Shown here: piece after piece, positions 4,676 through 35,228 of the stretch
How positions within the stretch are numbered: the stretch's first letter is position 1
How the letters are laid out: every line of letters starts with the position of its first letter
Assembly (NCBI GenBank): GCA_003330885.1
Contig: CP030277.1
Span: 2,463,501 to 2,527,500 of the forward strand
Direction of reading: 5' to 3'
DNA from: Rhodobiaceae bacterium
GTDB lineage: Bacteria > Pseudomonadota > Alphaproteobacteria > Parvibaculales > Parvibaculaceae
DNA length: 64,000 nucleotides
Translations under genes and position numbers: made by a program
Notes under the pieces: generated by a model
Databases searched by the model: none
What the model was told of the DNA's origin: nothing
The model's input: only the letters and a program-made list of their open reading frames with translations

Positions 4676-4682
4676 ATCCGGA

Positions 4683-9507: not shown

Positions 9508-9734
9508 CCATCTCTCTGATCTTTCAAATCTGAATCCCAACTATTATCTAAAAGTTGGGATAAGTATATGCCGACTGCTCTTCAGAGCAACTTCTTTCTG
9601 TGAGCCTTCAACTCGACATCAAGAAAAACCCTTGCCACAGGGCGTTAGCGGCTGAATGCCAAATTCTAGATAAATTCATTGATTTATTTTGGTTCAAAAA
9701 AGCCGCCAACTGCGCACAGATGGACGACCAACGA

Positions 9735-17056: not shown

Positions 17057-17153
17057 AACATTTTGCTTGCCATTCCAAACCATACTTGAGAGCATGTTTA
17101 AAAGATACCCGAAGGTATTTTTTGTACTCGTTAACTGAGGCATGGGGAGTGTG

Positions 17154-17990: not shown

Positions 17991-17991
17991 A

Positions 17992-18699
17992 ATGTCCAAA
18001 CTCAATTCGGTTCATCACATTGCGATTTCCACAGGCGATATGAAAAAGCAAATCGCTTTCTTCAGCGATGTCTTGGGCATGGAACTCATGGCCCTCTACT
18101 GGATGCATGGTGCCGAGAATGCATGGCACGGATTTATGAAGTTGGGCGAGGAGTCCTTTGCCTTCGTTTATGTTCCAAAAAACGAAGAGATAGAATCGAC
18201 CACTGGCGTCACCCATGCAGGCAATGGCGCAGGAGGTTCTGCCCCCGGCACGATGCAGCACATCGCGTTCAATGTGGCGACACGAGACGACCTCCTCCAC
18301 ATGCGCGACCGGATACGCTCCCGCGGCGTCAACGTTCTCGGCCCTGTGCTTCACGGCCTTTGCCAGTCCATCTATTTCGCCGGCCCCGAGGGGCTGGTCC
18401 TGGAAGTAAGCACATCCGAAGGTGCAACAGCTCCGCTTGATACAAATGGTACATGGATTGACATGGAAGTCGTCGAGCTTGCGGGCATCTCTTCTGACGA
18501 ACTCAAGCAATATATGAACCCTGCGCCATACGAAGGCGAAGACGGCGGGGTTGCCCAGCCGGCCTATGACGAGACAAAGCCTCATATGGACTACCCAAGA
18601 GAGGTCTATGACTTGATACTTGCGACACCCGATGAGGCCATCATCGCGCAGTCTGCGGAGTTCACAGATCCACCGGCAGACAGTTTCAAGTCCCGCTGA
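17992..18699 (+). CDS. VOC-family (glyoxalase/extradiol dioxygenase-like) protein
   Basis: A 235-aa protein with two halves of the vicinal-oxygen-chelate fold: HHIAIS near residue 8, HIAFNV near 88 and VLEVS near 140 carry the probable metal ligands (His, His, Glu). The C-terminal ~90 residues are an acidic extension. Relatives include extradiol dioxygenases, glyoxalases and epimerases. Its place between a hydrolase and an acyl-CoA synthetase favours a ring-cleavage or related catabolic step. Confidence 0.82.
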   Translation: MSKLNSVHHIAISTGDMKKQIAFFSDVLGMELMALYWMHGAENAWHGFMKLGEESFAFVYVPKNEEIESTTGVTHAGNGAGGSAPGTMQHIAFNVATRDDLLHMRDRIRSRGVNVLGPVLHGLCQSIYFAGPEGLVLEVSTSEGATAPLDTNGTWIDMEVVELAGISSDELKQYMNPAPYEGEDGGVAQPAYDETKPHMDYPREVYDLILATPDEAIIAQSAEFTDPPADSFKSR

Positions 18700-18737
18700 A
18701 CCTTTCCGCGACAAACCTTCCAACGGAGGATGGCACG

Positions 18738-20342: not shown

Positions 20343-21523
20343 GCCCTATGCAGGTTGGAACCTATGACTTCCTGAATCAGTCCCGCGTTGTCTTTGGCAA
20401 ACCCGCAGACGTTGCTATCGGCGAAGAACTCACCCGGTCAAACATCAAACGCGCCCTCCTCGTCTCATCGAGAACGCTGAGCAGGAAGGAAGAAGCGGCA
20501 AAGAAGATCGGTGCGGCCATGAAAGGTACGCTCATCGACATCTATGATGACATTGAGCCCCATGCGCCGCTGCCCAGTGTGTTGAAGCTTGCAGGCGTGA
20601 TGCGGGAAGAGCGCCCTGATATTGTCGTGACCCTGGGAGGTGGTAGCGTCATCGACACGGTGAAAGTTGCAAGCCTTGCCAAGGAAGCAAATGCCACGAC
20701 ACCGGAAGAACTCATTACCCTACGGGCTGTGGTAAACGAGGCGGGAGAACAGGTTTCCCCCTTCCAACCGGATAGCCTTATCCGTCAAATCGACGTACCG
20801 ACCACTCTCTCCGGCGCCGAGTTCGGCATTATCGGCGGCGGCGTCGATACCGAGCGAAACGTCAAAGATATTTACAAGCATCCAAAGCTCTGCGCAGAAA
20901 CCATCATCTACGATCCGGAGCTGGCACGCCTCACACCGAATGACCTCTGGATATCGACAGGCATGCGCGCCGTTGACCACGCGGTTGAAACCATTCAGTC
21001 CCGCGGCGCCTTTGCCTTTACCGATGGCCCCGCGCTCAATGCTCTGCGGCTCTTCGGTGCCAACCTGAAAGCTGGCGATCAAAAATCCATGGATCTGGGT
21101 GCGCTCCAGTCCTGTCAGCTGGCCGTCTGGTCTTCAACCATAGGTCTCGGTCGCATCCCCTATGGTGGTAGCCACGGCATGGGCCATCAGCTTGGGGCGA
21201 TATCCGGCGTGCCGCATGGCTTATGTTCATGCGTGCTGCTCCCAGCTGTCCTCAAATACAATGAAGGTATGGCGCCTGAAAAGGACGCGCTTATCAGTGC
21301 TGCGCTTGGCACGCCCGATCTCACGGCTTCAGAAGCTGTCAGAACACTTATTCGGCACCTCGATCTTCCTGATGATCTTCAGTCGGTTGGCGTGAAGCGC
21401 GAAGATCTCGAAAAAATCGCCGCGGCAAGCCTCGGAACCTATTTCGTCGAAAACAACCTTCGCCCCATTCGGTCTGTTGATGACGCCATGGCCATTCTGG
21501 ACGTCGCCTGGACGTCCGACTGA
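20339..21523 (+). CDS. Iron-containing alcohol dehydrogenase family protein
   Basis: A 394-aa protein. VTLGGGSVIDTVK is the NAD(P)-binding GGGS motif; metal ligands are expected in AVDHAVE and GGSHGMGHQLGAISGVPHG. The family includes maleylacetate reductases and hydroxyacid-oxoacid transhydrogenases as well as alcohol dehydrogenases; among ring-degradation genes a maleylacetate-reductase-like role is possible. Start overlaps the preceding stop (ATGA) with GGAAAC upstream. Confidence 0.88.
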   Translation: MSPMQVGTYDFLNQSRVVFGKPADVAIGEELTRSNIKRALLVSSRTLSRKEEAAKKIGAAMKGTLIDIYDDIEPHAPLPSVLKLAGVMREERPDIVVTLGGGSVIDTVKVASLAKEANATTPEELITLRAVVNEAGEQVSPFQPDSLIRQIDVPTTLSGAEFGIIGGGVDTERNVKDIYKHPKLCAETIIYDPELARLTPNDLWISTGMRAVDHAVETIQSRGAFAFTDGPALNALRLFGANLKAGDQKSMDLGALQSCQLAVWSSTIGLGRIPYGGSHGMGHQLGAISGVPHGLCSCVLLPAVLKYNEGMAPEKDALISAALGTPDLTASEAVRTLIRHLDLPDDLQSVGVKREDLEKIAAASLGTYFVENNLRPIRSVDDAMAILDVAWTSD

Positions 21524-21621
21524 TCCAAACACCCAAGAACCGAACCGGAGAGGTCCCACCCACTCTCCCCAAGACACAAGAGAAAGCCGACCATTTCCAG
21601 CGATCCGGAGGAAATCAGAAC

Positions 21622-22803
21622 ATGCAACAAACAGCATCACAGACCGCCGAGGGTCTCACCCCCGAGGACTTCATCGAGCAAGCTCACAGCCTGGTGCCAC
21701 TGCTGCGGGAAAAAGCACGCGAAGCCGAAGCAGCCCGCCGCCCTCTTGACGAGGTCATTGATGCTGTTCGCGCAACCGATCTGTTCTCCATGATGGTGCC
21801 GAAACGCTATGGCGGGCACGAAGCCGATATGGACACCTTTTTTGAGGTCTCATTGATCCTTTCGCGCGCCGACGCGTCGATGGGATGGCTGATCGGTTTC
21901 TATATCGAGCACGCCTTCTGGTTCTGCCACTTCCCGCAATCCGTTCAGGATGAAATTTTCGGTGATGCCGACCATATCCTTGCGCCCGCTGCGCTGAACC
22001 CGGCAGGTGGCATGGCCCGCGAAGTTGAGGGCGGCTACCAGCTCTCTGGCCAATGGGCCTGGGGCACAGGCATCATACATGCGACATGGGTGATGGCGGG
22101 CTGTCTCATGACGAAGGAAGACGGGTCTATCAACCCCATGTTCTTCATTCTGCCGCGCGAAGATGTGGAAGCCGTAGACACGTGGCACATAGCTGGAATG
22201 TGCGGAACCGGCTCCTGGGATTTCAAGATCGATGACAAGTTCGTTCCCGAAGGCCGCGCCCGGCCCTTCCTGGACCTTGTCTCCCTGAGCACGGGCATCA
22301 TGGATCGATACGACGCCCCAATCTACAAAACACCCATGATGGTGCTTCTCACCTTCGCAGCCGCGGCGCCGTGCCTTGGCGCGGCCCAGGCGGCGCTGAC
22401 CGCCTATCAGGACCAGATCAAAGCGAAGATGGAAACGGCCGGGCCCGAGCTCGACCACGCGAAACTTGCCCTGATCGCCGACGCCGCGCTGACGCTGGAG
22501 GCCGCAGAATTGATGATGCGGGATGTGCTGCGCGACGTTATGGAACAGCGCAACACTGCAACCATCGAAACGCGGAGCAAGTGGGCGGCGCGCATCTCGC
22601 ATGGTGTTTTCCTGTGCCGGGACGCCGTTGCAAAGATCGGCACCTCTGCCGGGGCGAGCGGCAACTTTCTCGACAACCCGATCCAGAGATCAGTGCGCGA
22701 CATCAACGCGGCCTCCTGCCATGTCGTTTTTAACCGGGAGGCACGTTACTGCGATTTCGGACAGCTTCTCTTCGACCAGCCCATCAAGAATTTTCTTGTA
22801 TGA
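21622..22803 (+). CDS. Acyl-CoA dehydrogenase-fold flavin monooxygenase-like protein (HsaA-like)
   Basis: A 393-aa protein of the acyl-CoA dehydrogenase fold, closest in feel to group D flavin monooxygenases (HsaA, HpaB): MVPKRYGG and the ASMGWLIGFYIEH region, then LSGQWAWGTGI and the C-terminal NREARYCDFGQLLFDQP, with no catalytic Glu segment of true acyl-CoA dehydrogenases. Such enzymes hydroxylate phenols with FMNH2 or FADH2 from a separate reductase; the next gene is a flavodoxin-fold reductase. Good ribosome site GGAGGAAAT. Confidence 0.82.
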   Translation: MQQTASQTAEGLTPEDFIEQAHSLVPLLREKAREAEAARRPLDEVIDAVRATDLFSMMVPKRYGGHEADMDTFFEVSLILSRADASMGWLIGFYIEHAFWFCHFPQSVQDEIFGDADHILAPAALNPAGGMAREVEGGYQLSGQWAWGTGIIHATWVMAGCLMTKEDGSINPMFFILPREDVEAVDTWHIAGMCGTGSWDFKIDDKFVPEGRARPFLDLVSLSTGIMDRYDAPIYKTPMMVLLTFAAAAPCLGAAQAALTAYQDQIKAKMETAGPELDHAKLALIADAALTLEAAELMMRDVLRDVMEQRNTATIETRSKWAARISHGVFLCRDAVAKIGTSAGASGNFLDNPIQRSVRDINAASCHVVFNREARYCDFGQLLFDQPIKNFLV

Positions 22804-22838
22804 CACGCTGATCGCTACCCCCCATTGAGAAAAGCAAC

Positions 22839-23489
22839 ATGACCAAACTCCTCTATATCGAAGCCAGTCCGCGAAAAGACCAGTCATACTCGTCGCAGGT
22901 CGCAAACGAGTTTCTCGACGTTTACACAGCGGAGAACCCGGATCACGAGATCGAACACCTGCCGCTCTTCGAAGTTGACCTGCCCGACTTTGCCGCAGAA
23001 GGGGCAACCCAGAAGATGGACAACCTTATGGACGTCATCGCCGGTGGGTCGGGCATCGGCAATGTCGGCGAATGGGCTGGCGTATTGAGCGAGATTGAGC
23101 GCCTCAAATCCGCTGACAAAGTTTTGCTGTCTGCCCCGATGTGGAACTACTCCATCCCTTACCGGCTTAAGCACTGGATTGACCTTGTCGTACATGTGGG
23201 TGCGACGGTTCTGGTGAATGACAAGTTTGAGTATATCGGACAGATCACGGACCGTCCGCTGCAGATGGTTCTGGCCAGCGGCAGCCCCTATGAGATGCGC
23301 TTCCCGCTCGAGACGGACGGTCTGAAAACCGACTTCCAGCGCGTCTATCTGGATCACATTTTCCGGTTTGTGGGGTTCACCGATATCCGGCTCATCAAGG
23401 TACAGCCGATGGGATTGCCCGGTCCCGATCTGGATGAAGCTTTAGCCACAAGCAAGGCAGCAGCCCGCGACGCAGCAAAAATCTTCTAG
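22839..23489 (+). CDS. azoR: FMN-dependent NADH reductase, AzoR-like
   Basis: A 216-aa flavodoxin-like protein of the AzoR/NQO family: IEASPRKDQSYSS (FMN phosphate site), APMWNYSIPYRLKHWIDLV (flavin-binding MWNF-type motif) and LASGSPYE. These enzymes reduce quinones or azo compounds with NAD(P)H. Placed 35 bp after a group D monooxygenase-like gene, it might supply reduced flavin or recycle a quinone formed in the pathway. Confidence 0.88.
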   Translation: MTKLLYIEASPRKDQSYSSQVANEFLDVYTAENPDHEIEHLPLFEVDLPDFAAEGATQKMDNLMDVIAGGSGIGNVGEWAGVLSEIERLKSADKVLLSAPMWNYSIPYRLKHWIDLVVHVGATVLVNDKFEYIGQITDRPLQMVLASGSPYEMRFPLETDGLKTDFQRVYLDHIFRFVGFTDIRLIKVQPMGLPGPDLDEALATSKAAARDAAKIF

Positions 23490-23535
23490 AAAACGCGCCT
23501 GCGTGAGCAATAGTGATGCAAGTGAGGAAGTCGTT

Positions 23536-25263
23536 ATGAACAAAATCCTGAAAGTACTTGGCGTTGTCGGTCTTCTGGCGGTTTGGCTGGCGCCCGCTCA
23601 CGCCGAAACCAGTCAGAAACCAAACTTTTTGGTCATCGTCGCAGACGATCTTGGGTGGTCAGACCTGGGATTTCTCGGCAGCTCAATCCGGACACCGAAC
23701 CTGGATGCACTGGCGCAGCAGGGTGTTTTCATGTCTCATTTTTACGTCGCGCCGACATGCTCTCCGACACGGTCAATGCTCATGACAGGCGTAAGCAACC
23801 AGGCCGCCGGTCTGGGAACGATGCATGGGATGCAATCACCCAATCAGGTAGGCCAGCAAGAGTATGCCGCCCAATTGCATGATCAAGTTTTGACCGTCGC
23901 GGAAATGTTGCAGGCGCACGACTATGTAACATCCATGACAGGCAAGTGGCATCTGGCGCTCGACTCAGATCAGTATCCGAACCGGAGAGGTTTTGATCAT
24001 TCGTTTGGTTTGATCCAGGGTGGCGCCAGTCATTTTGCGGACCAGATGCAACTCCATGTCGCTGAGGATGTGACGTATCATGAAAACGGAGAAGCCATCG
24101 ATCTGCCCGACGATTTCTACTCGACGACTGCGTACACCGACAAAATGATCGAATTTATAGACAAGTCGGGTTCCTCTCCGTTCTTTGCCTATGTCGCCTA
24201 CACAGCGCCACACGACCCACTCCAAGTGCCCGACGCGTGGTTAGACGAATATGCAGGTGTTTTTGATGCTGGCCCCGCGGACTTCAAGGAAAGGCGTCGG
24301 CAACGGTTGGTAGAACTCGGGATAGTTCCAGCCAAAGCGGAGATGGCCGAGACGTTGAATTTTCCATCATGGCTTCCGTCTTACAAACGTCCCTGGGCAG
24401 AACGACCAGCTGATGAGCAACAGGCCGATACGCGCCGCATGGAAATCTACGCATCAATGGTCGAGTTGATGGATCAGGAAATCGGCAGATTGCTGGCTCA
24501 CCTTGAAGCAAACGGCAAACTCGAGAACACCTACGTGATGTTTCTTTCCGACAATGGCGCTTCAACGACAACACCACTGGTCTACCTACACAATACGCGA
24601 GAATGGGTACACGAGAACTTTGACCTCAGCGTCGATCAGATGGGACACCAAGCAAGCTTCACAACCATGGGACGCGATTGGGCAAACGTCAGCAATACCC
24701 CATTCAGAATGTTCAAAGGAAGCGTTGCCGAAGGGGGTGTCCGGTCACCGCTCATCGTTTCAGGTCCTACTCTTGAGAGTAACCTGATTAACCCTGCCCC
24801 AGGCCACGTCATCGACATCGTACCGACAATTTTCGACTTGGCCGACATCGAGACCGATCGGCACCCTCTTTACGAAGGAAAATTGCTTCCGCGCGGCGAG
24901 ACCCTGGTTCCGTTGTTGCGGGATGGGACGACAGGCAGCGAGCGCATTTTGGTCACAGAGCTCTTCGGCAGCCGAATGGTTCGCCAGAGCAAATGGAAAG
25001 CGGTCTACTTTGGTCCGCCTTTGGGAGATGAGACATGGCAGCTGTATGACATCGTTGCCGACCCAAGCGCCACAACGGACCTCGCCGCCGACCATCCAGA
25101 GATTTTGAACCGCTTAGAGACTGCGTATGATGACTTCGCTGCGGAAAACAATGTCATTCCGCCGAACCCACCCCTCACAATGCGAGTCGACTCTTTTTAC
25201 GAAGGTGAATGCAACTGGTGGTGCAACATCCGGTTTCAGCTCACCAATTTGATCATCAATTAG
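23536..25263 (+). CDS. Arylsulfatase-type sulfatase, exported
   Basis: A 575-aa type I sulfatase. The signal peptide (MNKILKVLGVVGLLAVWL...AHA) sends it to the periplasm. NFLVIVADDLGWSDLG supplies the metal-binding Asp pair, C75 in CSPTR is the residue converted to formylglycine, and GKWHL and DNGAS are further signatures. It hydrolyses sulfate esters (aryl, alkyl or steroid). The start at 23536 has GAGGAAG upstream. No sulfatase-maturing enzyme is in this window. It sits at the end of the catabolic operon and converges on a permease gene. Confidence 0.92.
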   Translation: MNKILKVLGVVGLLAVWLAPAHAETSQKPNFLVIVADDLGWSDLGFLGSSIRTPNLDALAQQGVFMSHFYVAPTCSPTRSMLMTGVSNQAAGLGTMHGMQSPNQVGQQEYAAQLHDQVLTVAEMLQAHDYVTSMTGKWHLALDSDQYPNRRGFDHSFGLIQGGASHFADQMQLHVAEDVTYHENGEAIDLPDDFYSTTAYTDKMIEFIDKSGSSPFFAYVAYTAPHDPLQVPDAWLDEYAGVFDAGPADFKERRRQRLVELGIVPAKAEMAETLNFPSWLPSYKRPWAERPADEQQADTRRMEIYASMVELMDQEIGRLLAHLEANGKLENTYVMFLSDNGASTTTPLVYLHNTREWVHENFDLSVDQMGHQASFTTMGRDWANVSNTPFRMFKGSVAEGGVRSPLIVSGPTLESNLINPAPGHVIDIVPTIFDLADIETDRHPLYEGKLLPRGETLVPLLRDGTTGSERILVTELFGSRMVRQSKWKAVYFGPPLGDETWQLYDIVADPSATTDLAADHPEILNRLETAYDDFAAENNVIPPNPPLTMRVDSFYEGECNWWCNIRFQLTNLIIN

Positions 25264-25377
25264 ACGCCGATTGATAACGGCCCCAATGATACGCTCAGAA
25301 ACCCTGGGGACAAAACGGTCTTCTATCATCCTTGTGTCGAAGAGCGATTGCCCGATCAATTAGGTGACCAACGAATT

Positions 25378-26775
25378 TCAATCAACTCGATCTTGATGGG
25401 ACGCGAGATCTGCAGCTCCTTGTGTTTGCGGTTCAGCTTCAGCTGGCTCTTCGTTGGAACCCGCCCTCCACTCTAGAAGGAAATACAAAACCAATCCGGC
25501 GACCAGTCCCCATGCGGCTCCGTATGTCGCAAGGACGACGCCCATTGTACCTGCGACACCCATTTGCGTATTGTTTTTCATTTCATCGGCGGCAACGCTG
25601 ATGCAAAGGTAACCGGTCACCAGCAGGGTAACCGACAATGCGATTGGTAAGACTGGCTTGAATAAGGTCACGAGAGGCAAAGCGAACAGGGCCAATAACA
25701 GGACAAAATAGAATGTTCCCGCGCCACTATAAATGGAGTCCATTGCTCGGCGTCCGTACCGATAACGCTCGGCCATCGTGACCATAACACCCGTGAACAA
25801 CGGCCCTGCGAGCCCAGGGAAAGGCGCGAAGAAGCTATGGATCAAGTTGCGAATACCGGTCACCAAGTGAATACGGTCAACATTTACATCAATGTCTTCA
25901 TCAGGGCGTAAATGGTCGACGCGCGCCAGAACACTCTTTCCAACAATGATATCTCCAAACGCAATGATGTAAGCGATCACGGCCGTCGGCACAGCGAGCA
26001 AGAACATATTGGCGTTTGGCATACCTATGCTGAATGGCAGATAATGCCACATCTCAGCAAAGGCGGGTTGTGTGAAACCATACTCGATCTCAGGCAATGG
26101 ATACTCGCCGAGCGACCAACCGATCGCCATTGCTGCGATCGCACCCGGCACCATGCCATAGCTGGACAAGGCTCTGGCCCATCGGTTTGTTTCGGTCATG
26201 CGAAGGAAGGACTGTGAAAACAACATATAGGCCGTGATGACAAAGCCGATCACGAGCGATATTGGCGTGGCAGCAAGCCGGCCGCCTTCGGCGATTTCGC
26301 CGGTGAACGCGGCGATGCCAGCGCCCATCAAAATACCGGCTTTCATCGACTGTGGGATGATTTCCACCAGCTTTGATCCCAGGCGCGTAACGCCTAAGAT
26401 GAAAAAGATGAGAGTCACGATCAGTTGCAAGGCAATCATTGCTTTTATTGCGTCAGGGCCCGGTTCAAAATTGCTTAGAAACAGAAGCACGACCGGGATA
26501 GCGGGCGTGATCCACCCTGGCACCATGGGAACGCCCAGAAGACTTGGCAGCAAGAAACCAAGCGCGCTCACGAATACGTAAGCCAAAGCAACATCATAAG
26601 GCAGCCCGAGATAGCGTTCGAGAAGCGGTATCATTCCGAGCGCCACCACAAAAATGATTAAAGCCTGGATCGCCTCGACCAGTTCCAAACGATAATGGAC
26701 AAGCGGTAACCGCACCTTGAACGGACCCAAAGGCCAATAAGGCTGTTCTTCTCCGTGTTTTCTCTTTTTTATCAC
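25378..26775 (-). CDS. Multi-pass permease (NCS2/SulP-like solute carrier)
   Basis: A 465-aa integral membrane protein with about 12-14 hydrophobic segments, including LVHYRLELVEAIQALIIF, GWITPAIPVVLLFL and PQSMKAGILMGAGIAAF, in the arrangement of the xanthine/uracil permease and SulP transporter superfamily. A hydrophilic Glu/Gln-rich tail follows. Substrate is not readable; the neighbouring sulfatase makes sulfate or the freed alcohol or acid worth considering. Start is GTG after GGGGGG. Confidence 0.72.
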   Translation of the reverse strand: MIKKRKHGEEQPYWPLGPFKVRLPLVHYRLELVEAIQALIIFVVALGMIPLLERYLGLPYDVALAYVFVSALGFLLPSLLGVPMVPGWITPAIPVVLLFLSNFEPGPDAIKAMIALQLIVTLIFFILGVTRLGSKLVEIIPQSMKAGILMGAGIAAFTGEIAEGGRLAATPISLVIGFVITAYMLFSQSFLRMTETNRWARALSSYGMVPGAIAAMAIGWSLGEYPLPEIEYGFTQPAFAEMWHYLPFSIGMPNANMFLLAVPTAVIAYIIAFGDIIVGKSVLARVDHLRPDEDIDVNVDRIHLVTGIRNLIHSFFAPFPGLAGPLFTGVMVTMAERYRYGRRAMDSIYSGAGTFYFVLLLALFALPLVTLFKPVLPIALSVTLLVTGYLCISVAADEMKNNTQMGVAGTMGVVLATYGAAWGLVAGLVLYFLLEWRAGSNEEPAEAEPQTQGAADLASHQDRVD

Positions 26776-27044
26776 TCGCTCGACCCCCCGTGTAAATACC
26801 CCCCGTGATTGTTGTCTGGCTTTGTCACAAACTCAAACTTAAAACGCAGGGCCACATTCTCAGCCCGAATTGACCCTCGAGACCTAAGAAGCAGTCGTGA
26901 CCGTTCCACAAATTTTGAAAACCAAACGGATCATCGTGGCAGATCAGGCCACAATTCTCATATCACCAAACCCGGACGAGGTTTTTGGCAGGGACAGCTA
27001 GCTGAGTGATCGAAGGGATAGACAGGTTTAGAACTGCGTGAGAG

Positions 27045-27968
27045 CTAGGACATGCCGCCGCGCGCGCCGCCATTGACACTCAGAACCTGACCAGTGACGT
27101 AGTTGGACAATGGGGAAGCGAGAAAGAAGATCCCATCTGCAGCCTCATTGATCGAACCGCTGCGGCCCAGAACCGTTCCTGGAATTGGTTTTGGCGCATA
27201 GATTTCTTCATTTGTCGGCACATGATCCGGGTCGACTTTCACGCCAAGACGTTCTGCCTGTTTGTGGGGCATGCCAACGTGAATTTTCCGTCCGCCGGTC
27301 TCAATGACTTCACTTTCCGACTGAGGCAACCCAAACCGGGTCTGGATCACGCCAAACGTGACCGCATTGCAGTTCACCCGCGAGCGCCCCCATTCCTGAG
27401 CAAGTGTTCGCATCAGCCCCAACATGCCTGCTTTTGCCGACGCGTAGTTGCCGGCTCCCGCCAACCCCCACTGGCCCGCCAGCGAAGACACCATTATGAA
27501 CTTTCTATAAGACTGGCTGCCGCTTTCATCTTCTGCTTTTGCTGCGGCACGGAAGACAGGTGCGCAAGCACGGGCCAATCGAAAAGGAACAATGAGGTGA
27601 ATATCCAGCATGGCCTGAAACTGCTCGTCAGACATGCTGTGAATGCCCCCATCCCAGGCATACCCGGCATTGTTCACGACAATGTCCAACCGTCCCCGCT
27701 GCTCAATCGTTGTTGAGACGAGCTGATCACATACCCCTTCAGAAACCAGGTCTCCAACGAAAGCACTGGCGCGCTCCTCACCAAACGATTCATTGATCGA
27801 AGTGCAAGCTTCATGTGCAGCCTTCTGATCTACGTCCGCGATAACCACGTGAGCTCCGTTCGACGCAAGCATCTCAGACGTAGCACCACCGATCCCGCGG
27901 CTACCGCCCGTAACAATCGCAACCTGTCCAGCGAGAAGCTCGCTCTTCAATGTAGGTTTGGTAAGCAC
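27045..27968 (-). CDS. Short-chain dehydrogenase/reductase (SDR)
   Basis: A 307-aa SDR: TGGSRGIGG (cofactor), NNAG, and the catalytic Ser/Tyr/Lys in MVSSLAG and YASAK. An insertion of ~35 residues (IHVGMPHKQAERL region) before the C-terminal GQVLSVNGG makes it longer than usual SDRs. Start taken as the GTG at 27968, one base after the enoyl-CoA hydratase stop and behind AAAGGGAAA. Last gene of the minus-strand acyl-CoA operon; it would oxidise a hydroxyacyl or ring alcohol. Confidence 0.9.
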   Translation of the reverse strand: MLTKPTLKSELLAGQVAIVTGGSRGIGGATSEMLASNGAHVVIADVDQKAAHEACTSINESFGEERASAFVGDLVSEGVCDQLVSTTIEQRGRLDIVVNNAGYAWDGGIHSMSDEQFQAMLDIHLIVPFRLARACAPVFRAAAKAEDESGSQSYRKFIMVSSLAGQWGLAGAGNYASAKAGMLGLMRTLAQEWGRSRVNCNAVTFGVIQTRFGLPQSESEVIETGGRKIHVGMPHKQAERLGVKVDPDHVPTNEEIYAPKPIPGTVLGRSGSINEAADGIFFLASPLSNYVTGQVLSVNGGARGGMS

Positions 27969-27969
27969 G

Positions 27970-28794
27970 TTATTTCCCTTTCCAGACAGGTGGTCGTTTC
28001 TCGGCAAACGCCTTCAGGCCTTCACGCATGTCTTCAGATTTCATAACAGGCCGTGCAAATGTCATCTGTTCAGCCCATGCGTCCTCATCGTCCCATTCAT
28101 ATGCTTTGCGAACGATTTGCTTGCTCGCCTTCACGGCAAGCGGTCCGGCTGACAGCACTTGCTCAGCAAGTGAGATGGCATCCTTCAGTGCTTCTCCTGG
28201 CTCTGAAAGCACATTCACCAAGCCAAGCTCTGCCATTTTGGTTGCTGGCCAAGCCTTACCGGTGAGAGCAAGCTCCATCGCCAAGTGATAGGGAATTCGT
28301 TTCGGCAGGCGAAACAAGCCACCGCCCACGGCCACCAGAGAACGAGCCGCTTCGGGAATCCCCATCGTCGCAGTCTTGGATGACACGATGAGATCGCATG
28401 AGAGACAAAGCTCCAATCCACCCGCAAGCGCATGCCCCTCAACTGCTGCAATAATGGGCTTCTCAGGCGGCTTGGCCATTATACCGAAGCCCCCTCTTTT
28501 CTTCGAAACGCCCATGTCGCCATGCGCCGCCGCAATCAAGTCCTGACCAGAACTGAATGCTTCATCGGAGCCCGCAATGATTGCGCACCTCAACTCATCA
28601 TTCGCTTCATAAACATCGATCGCATCTTCCATTGCCCGTGCAGTCGCACCATCAAAGGCATTCCGGCGGTGAGGTCGGTCTATCCGAATAATGAGAAGAT
28701 GGTCCCCATGTCTTTCGGTCTTAATTGCGTCTGTCCCCGTCGGCGCCGCGCCCGGAACATCTGAGTGATTACTGGTTGACACTGAAGCCTCCAT
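27970..28794 (-). CDS. Enoyl-CoA hydratase/isomerase family protein
   Basis: A 274-aa crotonase-fold protein. IIRIDRPHRRNAFD opens the fold, AFSSGQDLIA and IIAAVEGHALAGGLELCLSCD form the oxyanion hole, and GIPEAARSLVAVGGG holds the region of the second catalytic Glu. It hydrates or isomerises an enoyl-CoA made by the upstream ligase pathway. Start ATG 28794 overlaps the upstream SDR by 26 bp; longer readings are the SDR's other frame. Confidence 0.9.
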   Translation of the reverse strand: MEASVSTSNHSDVPGAAPTGTDAIKTERHGDHLLIIRIDRPHRRNAFDGATARAMEDAIDVYEANDELRCAIIAGSDEAFSSGQDLIAAAHGDMGVSKKRGGFGIMAKPPEKPIIAAVEGHALAGGLELCLSCDLIVSSKTATMGIPEAARSLVAVGGGLFRLPKRIPYHLAMELALTGKAWPATKMAELGLVNVLSEPGEALKDAISLAEQVLSAGPLAVKASKQIVRKAYEWDDEDAWAEQMTFARPVMKSEDMREGLKAFAEKRPPVWKGK

Positions 28795-29569
28795 TGACCG
28801 GATATGTTTGACCCGTCGTCCAACTGGCCGAGTTCGATGCGAGAAATGTAACCATGGCAGCAACATCACTAGGCTCACCCACCCGACGAATGATGTAGTT
28901 GCGAAGCACCTTTTTCATCAAGTCTTCGTTCTGCGTCATGGCCCTTACTGCGGGCGTATTCGTGGTCGCGATTGCCACACAATTTGATGTGATGTCGAAA
29001 CGGCCAAGACTGCGGGCAAGACCACGCATAAAGCCAGCAGCACCTGCTTTCGCGCCGGAGTAGGTTTCCAGGCCACCTTCGCCAACACGTCCGGCGTCAC
29101 TGATAATCGAGATTAGGCGCCCGCCTTTTCCCGCTTCAATCATTCCGGGAATAGCCGCACGACAACAGTTCATCACGCCATAGAGGTTCACCTTCAAGAA
29201 TGCATCCCATTCCTTGGGATCACTTTCCCAGAATGGGCGGCCGGAGAGTGCACGCGGATCAGCACCTGCATTCCCGGCATTGTTCACCAGGACATCGACA
29301 GCCCCAAATTCACTTGAGGCCGTGTCGATCATCGTCTGGACGGATGCGAAATCGGTGACATCGGCCTGCAGTCCCAACGCCACCCCACCATTTCCATTGA
29401 TTTCATCCGCAATGGCCTCTGCACGCTCGCCAACGAAATCATTGACAACAACCTTTGCACCTTGCGCCGCGAGGTATCGCGCCGTCTCCGCCCCGACGCC
29501 TTGTCCTGCGCCGGTTACCAGCGCAACACGGCCCGTCAAATCTAGAATGTTCTTCTGTGCCTCAGACAT
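28769..29569 (-). CDS. Short-chain dehydrogenase/reductase (SDR)
   Basis: A 266-aa classical SDR with TGAGQGVGA (NAD(P) site), NNAG, catalytic IISDAG and YSGAK, and the C-terminal GQTYPVNGG. It lies between acyl-CoA ligase (8-bp overlap) and enoyl-CoA hydratase (26-bp overlap), so the four genes are one tightly packed operon. Expected role: hydroxyacyl-CoA or ring alcohol oxidation. Confidence 0.91.
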   Translation of the reverse strand: MSEAQKNILDLTGRVALVTGAGQGVGAETARYLAAQGAKVVVNDFVGERAEAIADEINGNGGVALGLQADVTDFASVQTMIDTASSEFGAVDVLVNNAGNAGADPRALSGRPFWESDPKEWDAFLKVNLYGVMNCCRAAIPGMIEAGKGGRLISIISDAGRVGEGGLETYSGAKAGAAGFMRGLARSLGRFDITSNCVAIATTNTPAVRAMTQNEDLMKKVLRNYIIRRVGEPSDVAAMVTFLASNSASWTTGQTYPVNGGFSVNQ

Positions 29570-31100
29570 TGCGCTCTCTTCCTTCCCAATACGGTTTTCG
29601 TAGTTCGTTCTTCAGAACTTTCCCCATCGGACTCATCGGCAAGGAGGAAACAATTTCGTATTCGCGCGGCTTCTTGAAAGAAGCGAGACGTCCGTCGAGG
29701 AATGCCGAGATATCCTCCACGTCGATCGCCGCGCCTTTTCGAGCAACGAGGAAAGCAAGTGGTTTTTCGCCGAATTCCTCATGCGGAATACCAATGACAG
29801 CGCAATCTTCAATGTCAGGGTGTTCGACCATCGCTTTCTCGATTTCAGCGGGGTAAATATTCACACCACCAGCGACAATCATGTCTTTGATGCGATCGGT
29901 GATGAATAGATATCCATCCTCGTCCAAATGGCCGACATCACCGGTCCGATAGAAACCGTCCTTGACGGTTTCCTCACCCAGCGCCTCTCTCCCCAGGTAG
30001 TTCTTCAAAACAACCGGTGTGTTTACAATGATCTCACCAGTCTCGTTCGTCCCGAGCCGAGACCAGTCGTCATTCGCAATTTCTATCTCGACACCCTCAT
30101 AGGCCCTGCCACTGCTGCCCGGTTTTCGCAGTTGGTCTTCAGGCGCCATAAACGAGATCATTCCCGCTTCGCTGCAGCCATATGCTTCCCAGAGAACCGG
30201 GCCGATCTTATCGATGATCCATGTCTTTAGTGAAAATGGCACCGCCGCCGCACCAACGTTGAGTGCGTGGATGGATGAGAGATCGTGCCGCGCCACGACT
30301 TCTTCCGGCAGGGATTGGATCCGCAACAACATAGTTGGAACACTGGTCCAGACCTGTACGTTATGTTTCTCGATCAGCTGAAGAGCTTCCTCAGGATCAT
30401 ATGGGTCTAGCAGGATTGCCGTTCCTCCGCGCGCGCACGCTGCCGTAGCGGAGGCCGGACCAGCACCGTGGTGTACAGGCAAAGTCATCAACACCACACC
30501 CTCGCTCGGCACTGGCGGAACTTCGCCAACAGCCGCGCCATATTTCAAGAGTCTATCGAAATCAACGGAGGCCAGGTCAACTGGAGGAACGCCCTTAGGA
30601 GCGCCTGTTGTACCGGATGTGTAGAGCACCATGCTCGGACGAAGCGGCCCGAACCTCGGTGTGAACTTCTCTGTTTCGAGAAGCTCTTCCAGCCGATGTC
30701 CATCCGTTCCCTTCTTTTGTCCGACGGTTATCAGAAGTCCGCAATCAAGATCACCCAACAACGCAGCATCAGCGTCGTCACATGCGAGCCCCTTAGCACC
30801 GCTGTCTTTGAGGATATGGAGAACTTCATCAGGCGTGAGTTTCCAGTTCACAGCCACTTGAGCAACATCCAGCTTCTGGAGCGCACGCTGAACTACAAAC
30901 CAAGGAAAATCGATCCGGAATCGCATCCCCAACCGGTCTCCCGGCCGAAGCCCGAGATCAAACAGGCGCTCTGCAACCTTGTTCGACATCTCATCCCACT
31001 GGGCATATGTCAGCTGGCGATCACCTTTGATAACCGCGACCGCGTCGGGTGTTCTATCTGCCCAGAATTCTGGGCTACCCATTTCAGGCTCAGTTCTCAC
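29562..31100 (-). CDS. AMP-forming acyl-CoA ligase
   Basis: A 512-aa ANL-superfamily ligase: LYTSGTTGAPKGVPP (phosphate-binding), EAYGCSEAG (adenylate), YRTGDVGHLDEDGYL (hinge) and the catalytic Lys in MSPMGKVLKNEL. It joins an organic acid to CoA at the head of the four-gene operon. It differs from the synthetase at 18.7 kb and belongs to the long-chain/steroid-type ligases rather than the acetyl type. Controlled probably by the TetR gene 23 bp upstream on the same strand. Confidence 0.92.
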   Translation of the reverse strand: MRTEPEMGSPEFWADRTPDAVAVIKGDRQLTYAQWDEMSNKVAERLFDLGLRPGDRLGMRFRIDFPWFVVQRALQKLDVAQVAVNWKLTPDEVLHILKDSGAKGLACDDADAALLGDLDCGLLITVGQKKGTDGHRLEELLETEKFTPRFGPLRPSMVLYTSGTTGAPKGVPPVDLASVDFDRLLKYGAAVGEVPPVPSEGVVLMTLPVHHGAGPASATAACARGGTAILLDPYDPEEALQLIEKHNVQVWTSVPTMLLRIQSLPEEVVARHDLSSIHALNVGAAAVPFSLKTWIIDKIGPVLWEAYGCSEAGMISFMAPEDQLRKPGSSGRAYEGVEIEIANDDWSRLGTNETGEIIVNTPVVLKNYLGREALGEETVKDGFYRTGDVGHLDEDGYLFITDRIKDMIVAGGVNIYPAEIEKAMVEHPDIEDCAVIGIPHEEFGEKPLAFLVARKGAAIDVEDISAFLDGRLASFKKPREYEIVSSLPMSPMGKVLKNELRKPYWEGRERNV

Positions 31101-31123
31101 AACGACGTCCTTTCAGCAAGAAA

Positions 31124-31750
31124 TCAAGATTGTGAAGAAAGCGCGGCTTCAATGAAGTAGTGACATTGCTCGCGCATTCGCTTCACATCGAATTCCGAAG
31201 GCGAAACCAGCGAAGTCCCAGCGATGCCGCGCAACATCCCGAGCAACGCCGCCGCGAAAGCATCAATATCAACACCGGGTTGAACTGATCCGTCGGCGAT
31301 GCCACGCTTCACGCAATCCGCGATACCGGATTTTGCTCGAGCATCTGCCTCAGCAAATTCCCCCTCGACAGCCATGCCCGGAAACGCTTCGCCCCACATC
31401 ACAAGAAAAGCGCGAGAGTATATCTCGGGCGACATATAGACACCGAGATAGGCGTCAGCGAGACGAAGCACATGCTCAACCCCGGTCTCCTCGGAGGGCA
31501 GTTTCACGCTTCCGATAAAACTCTGTTGGCAAAGCGCCGCAAGTTCGGAGATCAGCGCGTCCTTCGTTCCGAAGTGTCGGTTGACTAATCCCCGGCTGTA
31601 TCCAGCCCTTTCGCCAATGTCAGCAAGTGAACTCCGTTGCACGCCTTGTTCGGCCACCAGCTCAGCGGCAGCCTGCAATAGTGCCTCCTTGGCACTCTGC
31701 CGACGCTCCGCCTGGGTACGACGACCCTGAATTTTGTTCTGGACAACCAT
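31124..31750 (-). CDS. TetR-family transcriptional regulator
   Basis: A 208-aa TetR regulator with HTH SLADIGERAGYSRGLVNRHFG near residues 42-62 and a helical ligand domain. It leads the acyl-CoA ligase operon (23-bp gap) and is divergent from the DUF35/thiolase pair, with a 58-bp shared promoter region. Likely represses both sides until an acyl-CoA binds, as for KstR- and PaaR-like regulators. Confidence 0.92.
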   Translation of the reverse strand: MVVQNKIQGRRTQAERRQSAKEALLQAAAELVAEQGVQRSSLADIGERAGYSRGLVNRHFGTKDALISELAALCQQSFIGSVKLPSEETGVEHVLRLADAYLGVYMSPEIYSRAFLVMWGEAFPGMAVEGEFAEADARAKSGIADCVKRGIADGSVQPGVDIDAFAAALLGMLRGIAGTSLVSPSEFDVKRMREQCHYFIEAALSSQS

Positions 31751-31767
31751 TCCTGAACGCTACAAAC

Positions 31768-31789
31768 TTAGTTGCTCATCGTCAACCAA
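31768..31789. promoter_or_regulatory. Candidate TetR operator between divergent operons
   Basis: TTAGTTG (31768-31774) and CAACCAA (31783-31789) form an inverted repeat with one mismatch and an 8-bp centre, in the middle of the 58-bp space between tetR and the DUF35 gene. Confidence 0.45.
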
Positions 31790-31808
31790 CTTTTTGAAAG
31801 ACTTCGAA

Positions 31809-32219
31809 ATGGATCGAATTGCCGCAAAACCCGGGCTCTACGACCCGGCCTCGTTGGTGCCCCAGCTCAACGGCACTCGCTGCTCTGACTGCGGCGCAAC
31901 CTTCTTCCCCCCCTTACAAACAGGTTGTGAGAAATGCGGGAGCACTGGTCTTACACCCCTGAAGATGGAAGCGTCCGGCACTCTACATTCGGTGGCAACG
32001 GTTCACATGCATATGGGCAAAGACATCGAGGCCCCTTTCACGGTCGCCGAAGTCGCGCTGGATAGCGGCCCGATCATTCGAGCCATGCTGGCGGAACCTG
32101 CTGATCTGAATGCAATTGGCAAACGGGTTTCTGCTCAATGGGAAACGACAAAGACTGATGAAGACGGCAACGAAGTCGTCGAACCCTATTTCACACTCAG
32201 CACAAAAGGAGGCGTCTGA
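31809..32219 (+). CDS. DUF35 OB-fold/zinc-ribbon protein, thiolase partner
   Basis: A 136-aa protein with a rubredoxin-like zinc ribbon (CSDCGATFFPP and CEKCGS; four Cys) followed by an acyl-CoA-binding OB fold (FTVAEVALDSGPIIRAML). Such proteins form complexes with thiolase-fold enzymes; the ChsH2 DUF35 domain binds the Ltp2 aldolase in steroid side-chain degradation. It shares TGATG with the thiolase-like gene behind it, so the two are surely co-translated. The frame can extend upstream to 31734, but the TetR gene lies there. Confidence 0.92.
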   Translation: MDRIAAKPGLYDPASLVPQLNGTRCSDCGATFFPPLQTGCEKCGSTGLTPLKMEASGTLHSVATVHMHMGKDIEAPFTVAEVALDSGPIIRAMLAEPADLNAIGKRVSAQWETTKTDEDGNEVVEPYFTLSTKGGV

Positions 32220-33364
32220 TGCCCCGCCATCTCAGCGACTTCCGTACCGTCTCCGTCATCGGTGTCGGGCTGCATCCCTATCAACGTCCAAGTGAGACGC
32301 CCTACACACAGCTAGGCGTCACAGCGATCAGACAGGCTCTTCAGGATGCGGGAATTGAATGGTCCGAAGTTCAATCGGCCTACACGGGCACAGCAACCAC
32401 ATCCATGGGGCTCTCTCGACTTATGTATCGCCATCTCGGCGCCACAGGCATACCAATGACACAAGTCGAAAACGCGTCGGCTTCCGGCTCTTCGGCATTC
32501 CGCCAAGCGTGTTTTGACGTCGCGTCGGGCCTCGTGGACGTGTCGATAGCGGTCGGCGTCGACAAACCTTTGAATTTCTCAATGCCGCAGAGCGCGGCGG
32601 GCGTCAGAGATTTAATGGGTGGGCGCGTTGTTCCATTTACGCACTTCGCTCTCCTAGCCAACCGCTACATGCATGAAACCGGCGCGACTGCGGAGCAATT
32701 TGCACAAGTCGCCGTCAAAAACAGCATGAACGGTGCGCTCAACCCCAATGCGCAACGACAAAAAGTCCGATCGCTGGAAGAAGTTCTAGCTCCACCGGAA
32801 ATCAGTGGTCCCCTTACGCGACTACAATGCTGCCCTATTGGCGAAGGGGCAGCTGCTGTCATCATTGCATCTGATGATGCGATCCAACGGCTCGAACTGA
32901 ACCAATCAAGGTCCGTTCAGGTTCTTTCTTCAGCACTTCGATCCGAAACAACTTACGAGAACGAAAACTTCGATGCAGCACTAACACGCGACACGACAGC
33001 TGAAGCGCTCAGTGCTGCAAATCTGTCAGCGTCCGACCTCGACATCGTCGAGTTGCATGACGCATTCACTGTCGAAGAACTTCTCTATATCGAAGCTATG
33101 GGAATATCGACACCAGGACAGGCGGCAGCCGAACTCTCAGAGGGCCAGTTCACTATCGGTGGCCGCGTAAGCGTCAGTCCTTCGGGCGGACTCCTGAGCA
33201 TGGGGCACCCAATTGGTCCCACTGGAGTTGGGCAGATTTGTGAAATTACAACGCAGTTGCGCGGTGAAGCCGGGGCCCGACAACACAAAGGTGCACGGAC
33301 TGGCTTAGCACACATGGTCGGCGTTGGAGCCGTCTGCGCCGTCCATGTATTACGCGCGGCCTAA
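32219..33364 (+). CDS. Thiolase-fold protein lacking the nucleophilic Cys (Ltp2-like aldolase?)
   Basis: A 381-aa SCPx-type thiolase-fold protein. LHDAFTVEE and GGLLSMGHPIGPTG (the conserved His loops) are present, but the usual nucleophile segment (Cys-Ala-Ser-Gly) reads NASASGSS: S87 stands where the Cys should be. The C-terminal Cys-x-Gly of true thiolases is also absent (VGVGAVCAVHVL). Together with the adjacent DUF35 partner this suggests a retro-aldolase of the Ltp2 kind, or another non-thiolytic C-C lyase, rather than a beta-ketothiolase. Last gene of its two-gene operon. Confidence 0.88.
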   Translation: MPRHLSDFRTVSVIGVGLHPYQRPSETPYTQLGVTAIRQALQDAGIEWSEVQSAYTGTATTSMGLSRLMYRHLGATGIPMTQVENASASGSSAFRQACFDVASGLVDVSIAVGVDKPLNFSMPQSAAGVRDLMGGRVVPFTHFALLANRYMHETGATAEQFAQVAVKNSMNGALNPNAQRQKVRSLEEVLAPPEISGPLTRLQCCPIGEGAAAVIIASDDAIQRLELNQSRSVQVLSSALRSETTYENENFDAALTRDTTAEALSAANLSASDLDIVELHDAFTVEELLYIEAMGISTPGQAAAELSEGQFTIGGRVSVSPSGGLLSMGHPIGPTGVGQICEITTQLRGEAGARQHKGARTGLAHMVGVGAVCAVHVLRAA

Positions 33365-33527: not shown

Positions 33528-33604
33528 TGGTTGCGGGGAGCGGATTTGAACCACTGACCTCAAGGTTATGAGCCTTGCGAGCTACCAAACTGCTCCACCC
33601 CGCG
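33528..33604 (-). tRNA. Second initiator tRNA (fMet, anticodon CAT), carried by the element
   Basis: A complete 77-nt cloverleaf with encoded CCA, anticodon CAT in the loop CTCATAA and the initiator hallmark C1xA72 mismatch. It differs from the tRNA at 35152-35228 at 9 positions; 8 of these form four paired replacements (27-43 and 28-42 in the anticodon stem, 50-64 and 51-63 in the T stem, the last a G-U), so folding is kept. It lies inside the element, between the thiolase-like gene and the integrase, with no adjacent repeat or obvious terminator. Confidence 0.9.
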
Positions 33605-33816
33605 ACAAACAATCCAGCCAGATTACCAAAGAGACAGCACGAAGTCCATATTTTATTCCGTATACTGATTATTAGGCACCAAGAATTCCGCCAAACACAC
33701 CAGAGCCAAAGGATTTCTCATATTGCTTCAAGCCTCGAGTCGCCCAGGGCTAGGCTTGACGGTGCGTTGAACGTTCGTTCTGCACCTAAGCTCATTTTCC
33801 GATCTCAGGATTGCAC
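33605..33816. other. Intergenic space between element tRNA and integrase 3' end
   Basis: No gene or clear hairpin is visible. It holds the leader of the inner tRNA and the end of the integrase transcript. Any promoter for the tRNA on the minus strand would lie here or come from the integrase gene. Confidence 0.4.
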
Positions 33817-35013
33817 CTACTTGGCTGCAGCACCCAAGTGCCCCCGCTGCAATTCTCCTTCGATGTCAGATTTCTCATCAGCGGACTGCCGGACATTCAC
33901 CGCTGCCGCATTGATGACGTTTTTGATATGAGCAGCATAGTGCTTCTCAATAATCTCAACACTCGTGCGGCAGTTTTTCGCCACCTGATAGATATCAGCC
34001 CCTTCCATCAACCGTAAACTGATGTAGGTATGGCGCAACGAATATGTCGTTCGCCTTTTTCCATCGCGTGTGTATTTCAGGCCTTCTTGTTTGAGAATGG
34101 TATTAAACATACGAAGATGGTTTGTCGGAAACACCTTGTCCATCGGGCTTGGCTTGTTTCGCTTGACAATACGCTGATAGGGCCGGACGGCATTGGGCAT
34201 GCTTTTGCAATAGCCAACACCTCTCTTACCCCTCGCCTCAATCACCAAGATCGTTTCATTGGTCGCTTTATCCAGTTCGATCTCAACATCCCGATGCTCA
34301 ATGCTGTACGCCTCATCTGGACGCAGCCCCGTGTTAGCCATGAACAAGACAAAATCATGCAGGTCTTTCGCATGCCTTTTGTACTTGGGATACGTCTCAG
34401 TCCGCGCTCGTTTTCGTGTTGCTTCATAGAGCTGCTTGTATTCCTTCGGGCTAAACCAGGGACGATGCTCAACCTTGCCTTGAGTCTTATAGGGGGGTGA
34501 TAAGTCTGGTAAATGATCCAACCACTCATGGCGTACCGCCGTTTTGAGCACTTGGCTCAAAGTAACGACCTCATTGCGGATCGTATTGCGTGCTGGAGGT
34601 TTGCCCGTTCTCGATGTCTCAATTCTGTGGAGGCGGTACTCCTGCACCTTCCCGGCAGTCACCTCCGACAAAACAAGGTCTCCAAAGAATGGAAGTATAT
34701 GGAGTTTCAAACGATCTCTATGACCACGAACCCAAGCCGGACTCCTTTGCCCCTCTGTAATCGTTTCATACTCGGCTGTGAATTGCTCGGCAGCTTTGCG
34801 AACCGTTTTGCCAACCTTTAGTTCGCCGGATCTGCGCATCCCAACGAGACCAAGGTACCAATCCTCAGCGACATCTTTCGCAGCACTCAGGCTTTCTTCC
34901 TTTGTGCTATTCCGATGTTGCTTTCCACTCACGCTCGCTGCGCATTGCCAATAGCGACTGTTCGAACGCCGATAGACCTGAACCTTTCCGCCCAGAATGT
35001 TGTGTGTCGTCAT
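33817..35013 (-). CDS. int: Tyrosine integrase of the element
   Basis: A 398-aa phage-type integrase: N-terminal arm-binding part (~1-65), core-binding SAM-like domain (~70-170, AEQFTAEYETITEGQRSPAW...), then the catalytic domain with TGLRPDEA (Arg), SLRHTYISLR (His/Arg box) and EKHYAAH (nucleophile Tyr). Start ATG 35013 is preceded by AGAGGAGGAAAG, a strong ribosome site. It lies 129 bp inside the right repeat and reads away from the tRNA, the usual layout of tRNA-targeting elements. It should integrate at, and with a helper excise from, the 57-bp repeat. Confidence 0.95.
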   Translation of the reverse strand: MTTHNILGGKVQVYRRSNSRYWQCAASVSGKQHRNSTKEESLSAAKDVAEDWYLGLVGMRRSGELKVGKTVRKAAEQFTAEYETITEGQRSPAWVRGHRDRLKLHILPFFGDLVLSEVTAGKVQEYRLHRIETSRTGKPPARNTIRNEVVTLSQVLKTAVRHEWLDHLPDLSPPYKTQGKVEHRPWFSPKEYKQLYEATRKRARTETYPKYKRHAKDLHDFVLFMANTGLRPDEAYSIEHRDVEIELDKATNETILVIEARGKRGVGYCKSMPNAVRPYQRIVKRNKPSPMDKVFPTNHLRMFNTILKQEGLKYTRDGKRRTTYSLRHTYISLRLMEGADIYQVAKNCRTSVEIIEKHYAAHIKNVINAAAVNVRQSADEKSDIEGELQRGHLGAAAK

Positions 35014-35111: not shown

Positions 35112-35141
35112 AAAAAAGCCTTCCAAGTCAGAGACTTAGAA

Positions 35142-35150
<9 letters not shown>
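35112..35150 (-). terminator. Replacement tRNA terminator brought by the element
   Basis: On the minus strand the tRNA-fMet is followed by AAGCCTTCTAAGTC pairing with GACTTGGAAGGCTT and a T-run. Only the first bases match the original terminator at 803-840; the element supplies a different but working stem. Confidence 0.8.

Positions 35151-35228
<78 letters not shown>

Follow-up and report, generated by a model that had tools for sequence, protein, structure and literature searches.

An island in the tRNA-fMet gene of a Rhodobiaceae bacterium carries a conserved second initiator tRNA behind its integrase gene

Introduction

In tRNA-dependent lysogeny, a phage destroys a tRNA of its host and brings its own (Guerrero-Bustamante and Hatfull 2024, PMC10865867). 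The host loses its tRNA in these cases, and the core measures 8-17 bp. According to Table 2 of that paper, a cognate tRNA is missing from every entry with a rebuilt host tRNA (19/19) and is carried by every entry without rebuilding (11/11, with 1 not determined). The order of the steps, loss of rebuilding versus gain of a carried tRNA, was left open by the authors. Complete tRNA genes, nine of them tRNA-fMet, are also found in prophages and islands of Sinorhizobium meliloti (PMC11476347, PMC12429752). In these reports, none of the nine tRNA-fMet genes in Table 4 (0/9) lies in an element integrated in tRNA-fMet; the sites used are Lys, Ser, Pro, Val, Met or none. Two of the prophages interrupt tRNA-Leu(UAG) and bring along a further tRNA-Leu(UAG). 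Here, we describe an island in a stretch of 64,000 nucleotides (the window; contig CP030277.1, positions 2,463,501 to 2,527,500) from a Rhodobiaceae bacterium. The island is integrated in the gene of the initiator tRNA (tRNA-fMet), which it rebuilds, and it contains a second complete initiator tRNA, here called tRNA2.

Comparison with related elements suggests that tRNA2, conserved and placed directly behind the integrase gene, may act as a working spare for the single initiator gene of the host, a reading to which we give close to an even chance of being correct. The genome of the window (G000) consists of one contig, and positions are window coordinates unless a locus label (L or C) is given.

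Results

A complete initiator tRNA inside the island

Full tRNAs were called by ARAGORN and Rfam at both tRNA2 and the host tRNA-fMet (Table 1), with Rfam covariance-model scores of 60.1 and 66.1 bits respectively (gathering score 29). Bacterial initiators are marked by C1xA72, A11-U24, a CAT anticodon, a cloverleaf and CCA, as well as by three G-C pairs at 29-41, 30-40 and 31-39. Both tRNAs have C1xA72, A11-U24, the anticodon CAT and an encoded CCA, and their cloverleaf pairs are standard in 20/20 tested. The three G-C pairs are incomplete in tRNA2, where 29-41 is A-U; as this is equally so in the host initiator, the feature does not separate the two. When tRNA2 was folded by minimum energy alone, the cloverleaf did not come out; it is within 0.2 kcal/mol of the minimum.

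An earlier note on this stretch, made from the letters alone, had described such a complete initiator and counted its differences from the host copy, and both the gene and the count proved exact. The two tRNAs differ at 9/77 positions (17, 27, 28, 42, 43, 50, 51, 63 and 64), and eight of the nine make up four pairs that still pair (27-43, 28-42, 50-64 and 51-63), the last being a U-G wobble in the window. Two of the five anticodon-stem pairs are thus changed, with the anticodon loop CTCATAA kept. The same note took the paired changes to imply selection. This holds for the tRNA lineage at some time and not necessarily for its time within the element, which the comparison with a second island shows instead (see below).

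That tRNA2 lies inside the element was likewise borne out, since it is enclosed by two exact 57-bp attachment (att) repeats whose starts are 34,310 bp apart, giving an island of ~34.3 kb. The att block spans tRNA positions 30-77 plus ten bases downstream. The right (integrase) end of the island bears the rebuilt host tRNA, the far end bears a fragment of host type, and the order on the minus strand is host tRNA-fMet, integrase, tRNA2. An ordinary att fragment was considered for tRNA2 and rejected, as the gene is complete and 6/47 shared positions differ from the att copy.

The element-free congener G003 contains a host tRNA identical to that of the window (77/77) without the island integrase, and the DNA that follows its tRNA-fMet resembles the far end of the island (window 760-888, 91% identity), which makes it the empty site. 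Together with the extent of the att block, this identity indicates a whole host gene before and after recombination, so that the splitting of the host tRNA at excision, as the note had proposed, does not apply here.

Copy number of the initiator gene

A BLAST search of the one-contig genome with tRNA2 (E up to 0.001) matched three places: tRNA2 itself, the host copy and the tRNA fragment at the att repeat; such a search could miss a much more diverged initiator. Genomes G003, G005 and G006 gave one initiator match each. The variant was sought as a chromosomal tRNA in element-free relatives, a finding that the earlier note had named as speaking against its view, and was not found in G003. Allowing up to 2 mismatches in a 45-base pattern, the tRNA2 arm occurs in 2/385 genomes of the class (G000 and G002) and, with up to 1 mismatch, the arm CAAGG/CCTTG occurs in 1/398 genomes of the phylum (G000). 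A chromosomal second initiator of the genus was rejected as an explanation of tRNA2 because of the empty site in G003 and the near confinement of the arm to G000 and G002.

Conservation of tRNA2 between two islands

The same variant was found in a related element, an island in a genome of the same genus (G002), which has the same cassette order of host tRNA, integrase and tRNA2 and carries other cargo. In a DNA alignment of the window with G002, the small recombinase and the relaxase/Mob stretches align, while the genes of the cyclic-oligonucleotide-based antiphage signalling system (CBASS) and the catabolic genes do not. The host tRNA is identical in both genomes (77/77), and tRNA2 is identical at 74/77 positions, differing at 16, 17a and 63, the last of which turns the U-G of pair 51-63 into U-A. 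The coding sequence of the integrase is identical at 812 of 1175 aligned bases (69%; 363 differ), its fourfold sites differ at 79/119, and the flanks of tRNA2 are identical at 125/212 positions on the 5' side (59%) and at 84/181 on the 3' side (46%). At the integrase's own codon-aligned nucleotide rate (370/1173), the probability of three or fewer differences in 77 is 1.7e-9. The contrast between 3/77 differences in tRNA2 and 31% divergence of the integrase, within the same cassette of two islands, argues that tRNA2 belongs to the backbone, where selection maintains it, and not to the cargo. At the level of sequence, the comparison of G000 with G002 thus shows tRNA2 to be under selection within the element.

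An 18-nucleotide block upstream of tRNA2 is identical in the two genomes, a length reached by 0/1000 shuffles, and could be part of a promoter. It bears no resemblance to the region that is conserved ahead of the host gene, where a conserved GC-rich stretch follows a -10-like box; tRNA2 is without such a stretch.

In the island of G002, the 3' end of the integrase gene and its hairpin recur beyond tRNA2 as a 133-bp repeat of 74% identity; the window showed no such integrase relic at the corresponding place. The post-integrase hairpin therefore occurs twice in G002 (L034 16941-17061 and 17398-17530); the copies differ, the stem still pairs and, as a T-run is missing, it is not a plain terminator. 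Two more tRNA-fMet att fragments lie beyond this island (L033 16042-16088 and 1199-1245), marking elements stacked in tandem, and the second stacked element contains genes of nitrate-assimilation type (molybdopterin oxidoreductase, nitrite reductase and an NMT1-like binding protein).

A relative that splits its site and carries a replacement

Further support for a spare role of tRNA2 comes from genome G153, where a related integrase (50% identical to that of the window) is followed in the same place by a replacement tRNA. A full tRNA-Leu(TAG) (C20:1763-1847, L447) lies ~150 bp behind the integrase (1998-3191) on the same strand and was the only full-length match in the genome when searched with that tRNA. 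A second tRNA-Leu(TAG) is split into a 5' half (C11:30915-30961; L445 1416-1462) and a 3' half (C20:3301-3357, L447), the latter next to the trigger factor gene, which it precedes. Exactly 18 bp, the core, are common to both halves. In the joined flanks ARAGORN recognised a tRNA-Leu(tag), and at the two junctions it recognised no tRNA. The short core, the junctions without a tRNA and the carried tRNA-Leu together indicate that the island of G153 splits the host gene and carries its replacement. In comparison to the split host gene, the carried copy has the same anticodon loop and four of five anticodon-stem pairs changed on both sides, still paired. Genes for an AbiE-type pair, an MZB-domain helicase and a second recombinase lie at the island ends. 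Among the nine open reading frames (ORFs) of the two island ends, the part of the island that was scanned, PHROGs matched integrases only, and the island is apparently non-phage.

The integrase family

In total, 28 distinct loci of the integrase family were mapped (L047 and L334 have the same sequence and were counted once), on stretches of 5.5 to 19.5 kb in the relatives, so that a second initiator farther off could be missed. The tRNA-fMet before the integrase is full at 12 loci, cut by the contig end at one, present only as a fragment at four and not found in the stretch at 11. Wherever it is full or cut by the contig end (13/13), the site tRNA has the stem TCAGG/CCTGA. A second full initiator was seen only in the window and in G002. 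Among the 11 loci without tRNA-fMet, the integrase of G139 is preceded by a tRNA-Arg on its own strand and that of G419 by a divergent tRNA-Asn; the tRNA-Leu behind the integrase of G153 belongs to this group as well.

Two integrases of the family stand in tandem behind tRNA-fMet in G016 (L068 917-3733) and G176 (L332 1707-4242). Of 24 plasmid records with integrase matches, seven were fetched. On plasmids of Asticcacaulis and Bradyrhizobium, the integrase or part of it is preceded only by a piece of tRNA-fMet that starts at position 27 (L052 4794-4829, L054 4796-4831, L056 4823-4868), possibly the attP on the plasmid. On L053, the integrase (at 5010) is preceded, at a distance of about 112 bp, by a 3' tRNA half that by eye resembles tRNA-Lys(TTT), so the integrase of that plasmid may use another tRNA site. 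No integrase relatives were confirmed in viral contigs.

Origin of the tRNA2 arm

The arm CAAGG/CCTTG was matched in at least 120 stretches of viral contigs. In a separate viral sample that was not selected on positions 27-29 and 41-43 and comprised at least 120 matches, C27-G43 occurs in 32 of the 80 contigs listed and exactly CAAGG/CCTTG in 11 of these 80; with further contigs of the sample added, C27-G43 occurs in 41/109. In genomes of the class, C27-G43 occurs in 3/289 (G000, G002 and G138) and the U27-A43 arm in 156/289, the remaining genomes matching neither pattern exactly. Eight named phage tRNA loci were fetched, six with C27-G43 initiator-like arms (two of them exactly CAAGG/CCTTG) and two with the host-type arm. 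As judged from these counts, tRNA2 is of a type that is common among viruses and uncommon among its hosts. The CAAGG stem is shared by plastid initiators, and the trait is thus not exclusive to viruses.

Descent of tRNA2 from a particular phage was not shown, the best named phage match being 89% over 72 bases. The best viral contig agrees with tRNA2 at 70/77 positions, hardly above the 68/77 of the host tRNA, and 437 plasmid records matched tRNA2, at best with 85.7%. The C27-G43 initiator of G138 (L441 9004-9080; CTAGG/CCTAG), an alphaproteobacterial genome listed with 10% contamination, looks chromosomal and is likely a natural exception to the host-type arm. GOLLD and ROOL RNAs were seen near tRNA genes in viral contigs with a CAAGG-type initiator (L087 5348-5741, L089 8371-9064).

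Gene content of the island

The remaining features are collected in Table 1. With its integrase, att repeats and relaxase, the island is best described as an integrative mobilizable element and is predicted to be mobile. Pfam was run on 30 ORFs, which are part of the ORF set and among which no mating-pair genes were found; 16 of the window's ORFs were scanned with PADLOC. The hairpin behind the host tRNA does not appear in the terminator scan of the window, and its G002 counterpart is listed by the same kind of scan. A 569-amino-acid ORF at the far end of the island (1183-2892, minus strand) has no Pfam or PADLOC match. Outside the island, the window contains 23S and 5S rRNA genes (60772-63745, minus strand), the 5S without a tRNA-fMet behind it; unlike in the window, tRNA-fMet closely follows the 5S in the family member G007 (L042, L043).

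Table 1 Features of the island in window coordinates
Feature	Position	Strand	Remark
att repeat, far end	832..888	.	57 bp, exact; tRNA fragment, positions 30-77
Cargo: HipA-like protein and helix-turn-helix partner	3087..4747	-	
Cargo: type II CBASS	4876..8834	+	CD-NTase, E1-E2, JAB, NucC effector
Small second tyrosine recombinase	8896..9540	-	Present in G002 too
Relaxase, MobA/VirD2-like	11120..12124	-	Present in G002 too
NikA/MobC mobilization protein	12139..12468	-	Present in G002 too
Type IV secretion system coupling protein	12699..14984	+	
Cargo: catabolic genes	17142..33364	.	Hydrolase, glyoxalase, acyl-CoA ligases, iron-containing alcohol dehydrogenase, acyl-CoA dehydrogenase, sulfatase, short-chain dehydrogenases/reductases, enoyl-CoA hydratase, thiolase
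tRNA2, complete second initiator tRNA-fMet(CAT)	33528..33604	-	CCA encoded; anticodon stem CAAGG/CCTTG
18-nucleotide block upstream of tRNA2	33641..33658	-	Identical in G002; candidate promoter part
Conserved hairpin 3' of integrase gene	33729..33758	-	One copy in window, two in G002
Island tyrosine integrase	33817..35013	-	398 amino acids
Terminator-like hairpin with T-run behind host tRNA	35112..35150	-	Supplied by island; read by eye
att repeat, integrase end	35142..35198	.	57 bp, exact
Host tRNA-fMet, rebuilt	35152..35228	-	Anticodon stem TCAGG/CCTGA; identical to tRNA of element-free G003

Discussion

In the proposed role, tRNA2 would be transcribed from its own or the integrase promoter, charged, formylated and used in initiation, and as a spare it would let the cell tolerate recombination, island stacking or damage at its one tRNA-fMet gene. 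This state could be a step before, or beside, the full dependence seen in G153. According to work on tRNA sublocations, such integrases use the dyad of the anticodon loop. If the dyad formed by the anticodon stem and loop is the one used by the island integrase, the changed stem pairs would hide the carried tRNA as an att site, and the kept pairing would leave it a working tRNA. An unchanged carried copy would be a second att site that would split the island. On a somewhat more tentative level, which we place a little below an even balance, the integrase family would span three states: elements that rebuild the host tRNA, elements that rebuild it and carry a spare (the window, with an initiator), and elements that split it and depend on the copy they bring (G153, with tRNA-Leu). 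The carried tRNA would always keep its loop and rewrite its stem pair by pair, hidden from the integrase of its own element.

Several observations weigh against a working spare. As the host tRNA is rebuilt in the window, no spare is strictly needed, and gene dosage would leave the same conservation of tRNA2. A sigma-70 scan gave no promoter near tRNA2 in the window or the G002 island, and a terminator scan gave none behind tRNA2; in the window, the hairpin that follows the host tRNA escaped the same scan. Twenty-six of the 28 mapped loci of the integrase family are without a second initiator in the stretches covered. The crossover point of the integrase is one that we infer, and G153 is a draft genome in which the tRNA-Leu halves lie on two different contigs. 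Finally, a further full-length initiator match (83%) lies on a 6.4-kb contig of G001, a genome with 6% contamination, and the single copy may thus not hold across the whole genus. In the same genome, a 3.4-kb segment with a TetR-type regulator and an FAD oxidoreductase lies between tRNA-fMet and an att fragment (L035 3874-7400); no integrase was found in it, and our reading is that it may be an island remnant or a passenger.

Alternatively, tRNA2 could be a relic made useful. Two islands or integrase modules would have fused, one would have lost most of its integrase while its tRNA stayed, and tRNA2 would have been kept for the mild benefit of an extra initiator rather than for integration. 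The position of the G002 tRNA2 between an intact integrase and a duplicated integrase 3' end suggests that tRNA2 entered through such a fusion, tandem integrase pairs behind tRNA-fMet do exist in G016 and G176, and many hosts run several initiator genes. We nevertheless consider this history unlikely as an explanation of the present role, as no relic was seen behind tRNA2 in the window, the conservation of tRNA2 exceeds passive survival, simple tandem integration leaves 3' fragments and not a full gene with its 5' flank, and the carried tRNA in the same place of G153 has a clear need. Dosage, by which the island would provide more initiator to serve its own genes or to meet stress, with no link to the att site, fits the one initiator gene of the host. 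The missing GC-rich stretch upstream of tRNA2 fits as well, since it may mean that the two genes are regulated differently. As it explains neither why the carried tRNA shares its isotype with the integration site in the tRNA-fMet and the tRNA-Leu islands alike nor why tRNA2 stands behind the integrase, we regard this as quite improbable.

The earlier note had seen in tRNA2 an insurance for initiation, either at excision or against a tRNA nuclease. The spare remains the most likely role and is backed by G153, though not by way of a host tRNA split at excision. The nuclease version, in which tRNA2 would be a cleavage-resistant initiator that sustains translation when a phage, toxin or defence system cuts the host initiator, comes out weaker, and we think it improbable. 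Defence-type genes are present in all three tRNA-carrying islands (CBASS and the HipA-like protein in the window; PDC-M54A and weak PDC-M03A matches in G002; AbiE and the MZB-domain helicase in G153), and C27-G43 arms are common among the viral initiators listed above. Evasion of VapC-type nucleases has also been proposed for phage tRNAs, and tRNA-fMet is cleaved by VapC-LT2 (PMC10264068). However, the anticodon loop, the seat of the proposed escape changes, is identical to that of the host, a search confined to the PIN family PF01850 found no match in the genome, and the defence genes differ between the islands. The defence-gene scan covered tRNA-carrying islands only.

A working spare would be of interest because the essential gene concerned is the initiator tRNA, present once in the host. 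The three states within one integrase family would make the order of the steps towards tRNA dependence testable outside actinobacteriophages and apparently outside phages, and they would suggest a simple rule, itself open to test, by which a tRNA gene persists next to an integrase directed at tRNA genes. In the literature, of which subscription papers lay mostly outside the search, no report was found of an element that sits in tRNA-fMet and itself carries an initiator tRNA.

Compared with ordinary integrative mobilizable elements in tRNA genes, the island shares the integrase, att repeats, relaxase, coupling protein and rebuilt tRNA, but such elements leave a tRNA fragment and not a second complete, conserved cognate tRNA. 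With the phage tRNAs for which evasion of nucleases has been proposed (PMC10264068), it has in common an additional tRNA that is of mobile origin and distinct from that of the host; the proposed escape changes lie in the anticodon loop, whereas the loop of tRNA2 is unchanged. The S. meliloti elements are likewise alphaproteobacterial and have complete tRNA genes, and their split tRNA-Leu(UAG) cases resemble G153. These split cases (PMC11476347, PMC12429752) are prophages, while the carried tRNA-fMet of the window sits in a tRNA-fMet-integrated island.

The likeness to tRNA-dependent lysogeny is closer. The window has a tyrosine integrase with an attB overlapping a tRNA gene, and in phage Gaia (PMC10865867) the carried tRNA lies downstream of int as it does here. 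G153 shows the whole sequence pattern, with a short core, a tRNA that is not rebuilt and a carried tRNA of the same isotype. In the window, by contrast, the 57-bp block rebuilds the host tRNA, so the short core without rebuilding is not what is found there, and the combination of rebuilding and carrying is absent from Table 2 of PMC10865867. Moreover, tRNA-dependent lysogeny was described in phages, while the window and G153 look like non-phage islands. By both rebuilding the host gene and carrying a second one, the island of the window is as an order in which the tRNA was gained first would predict.
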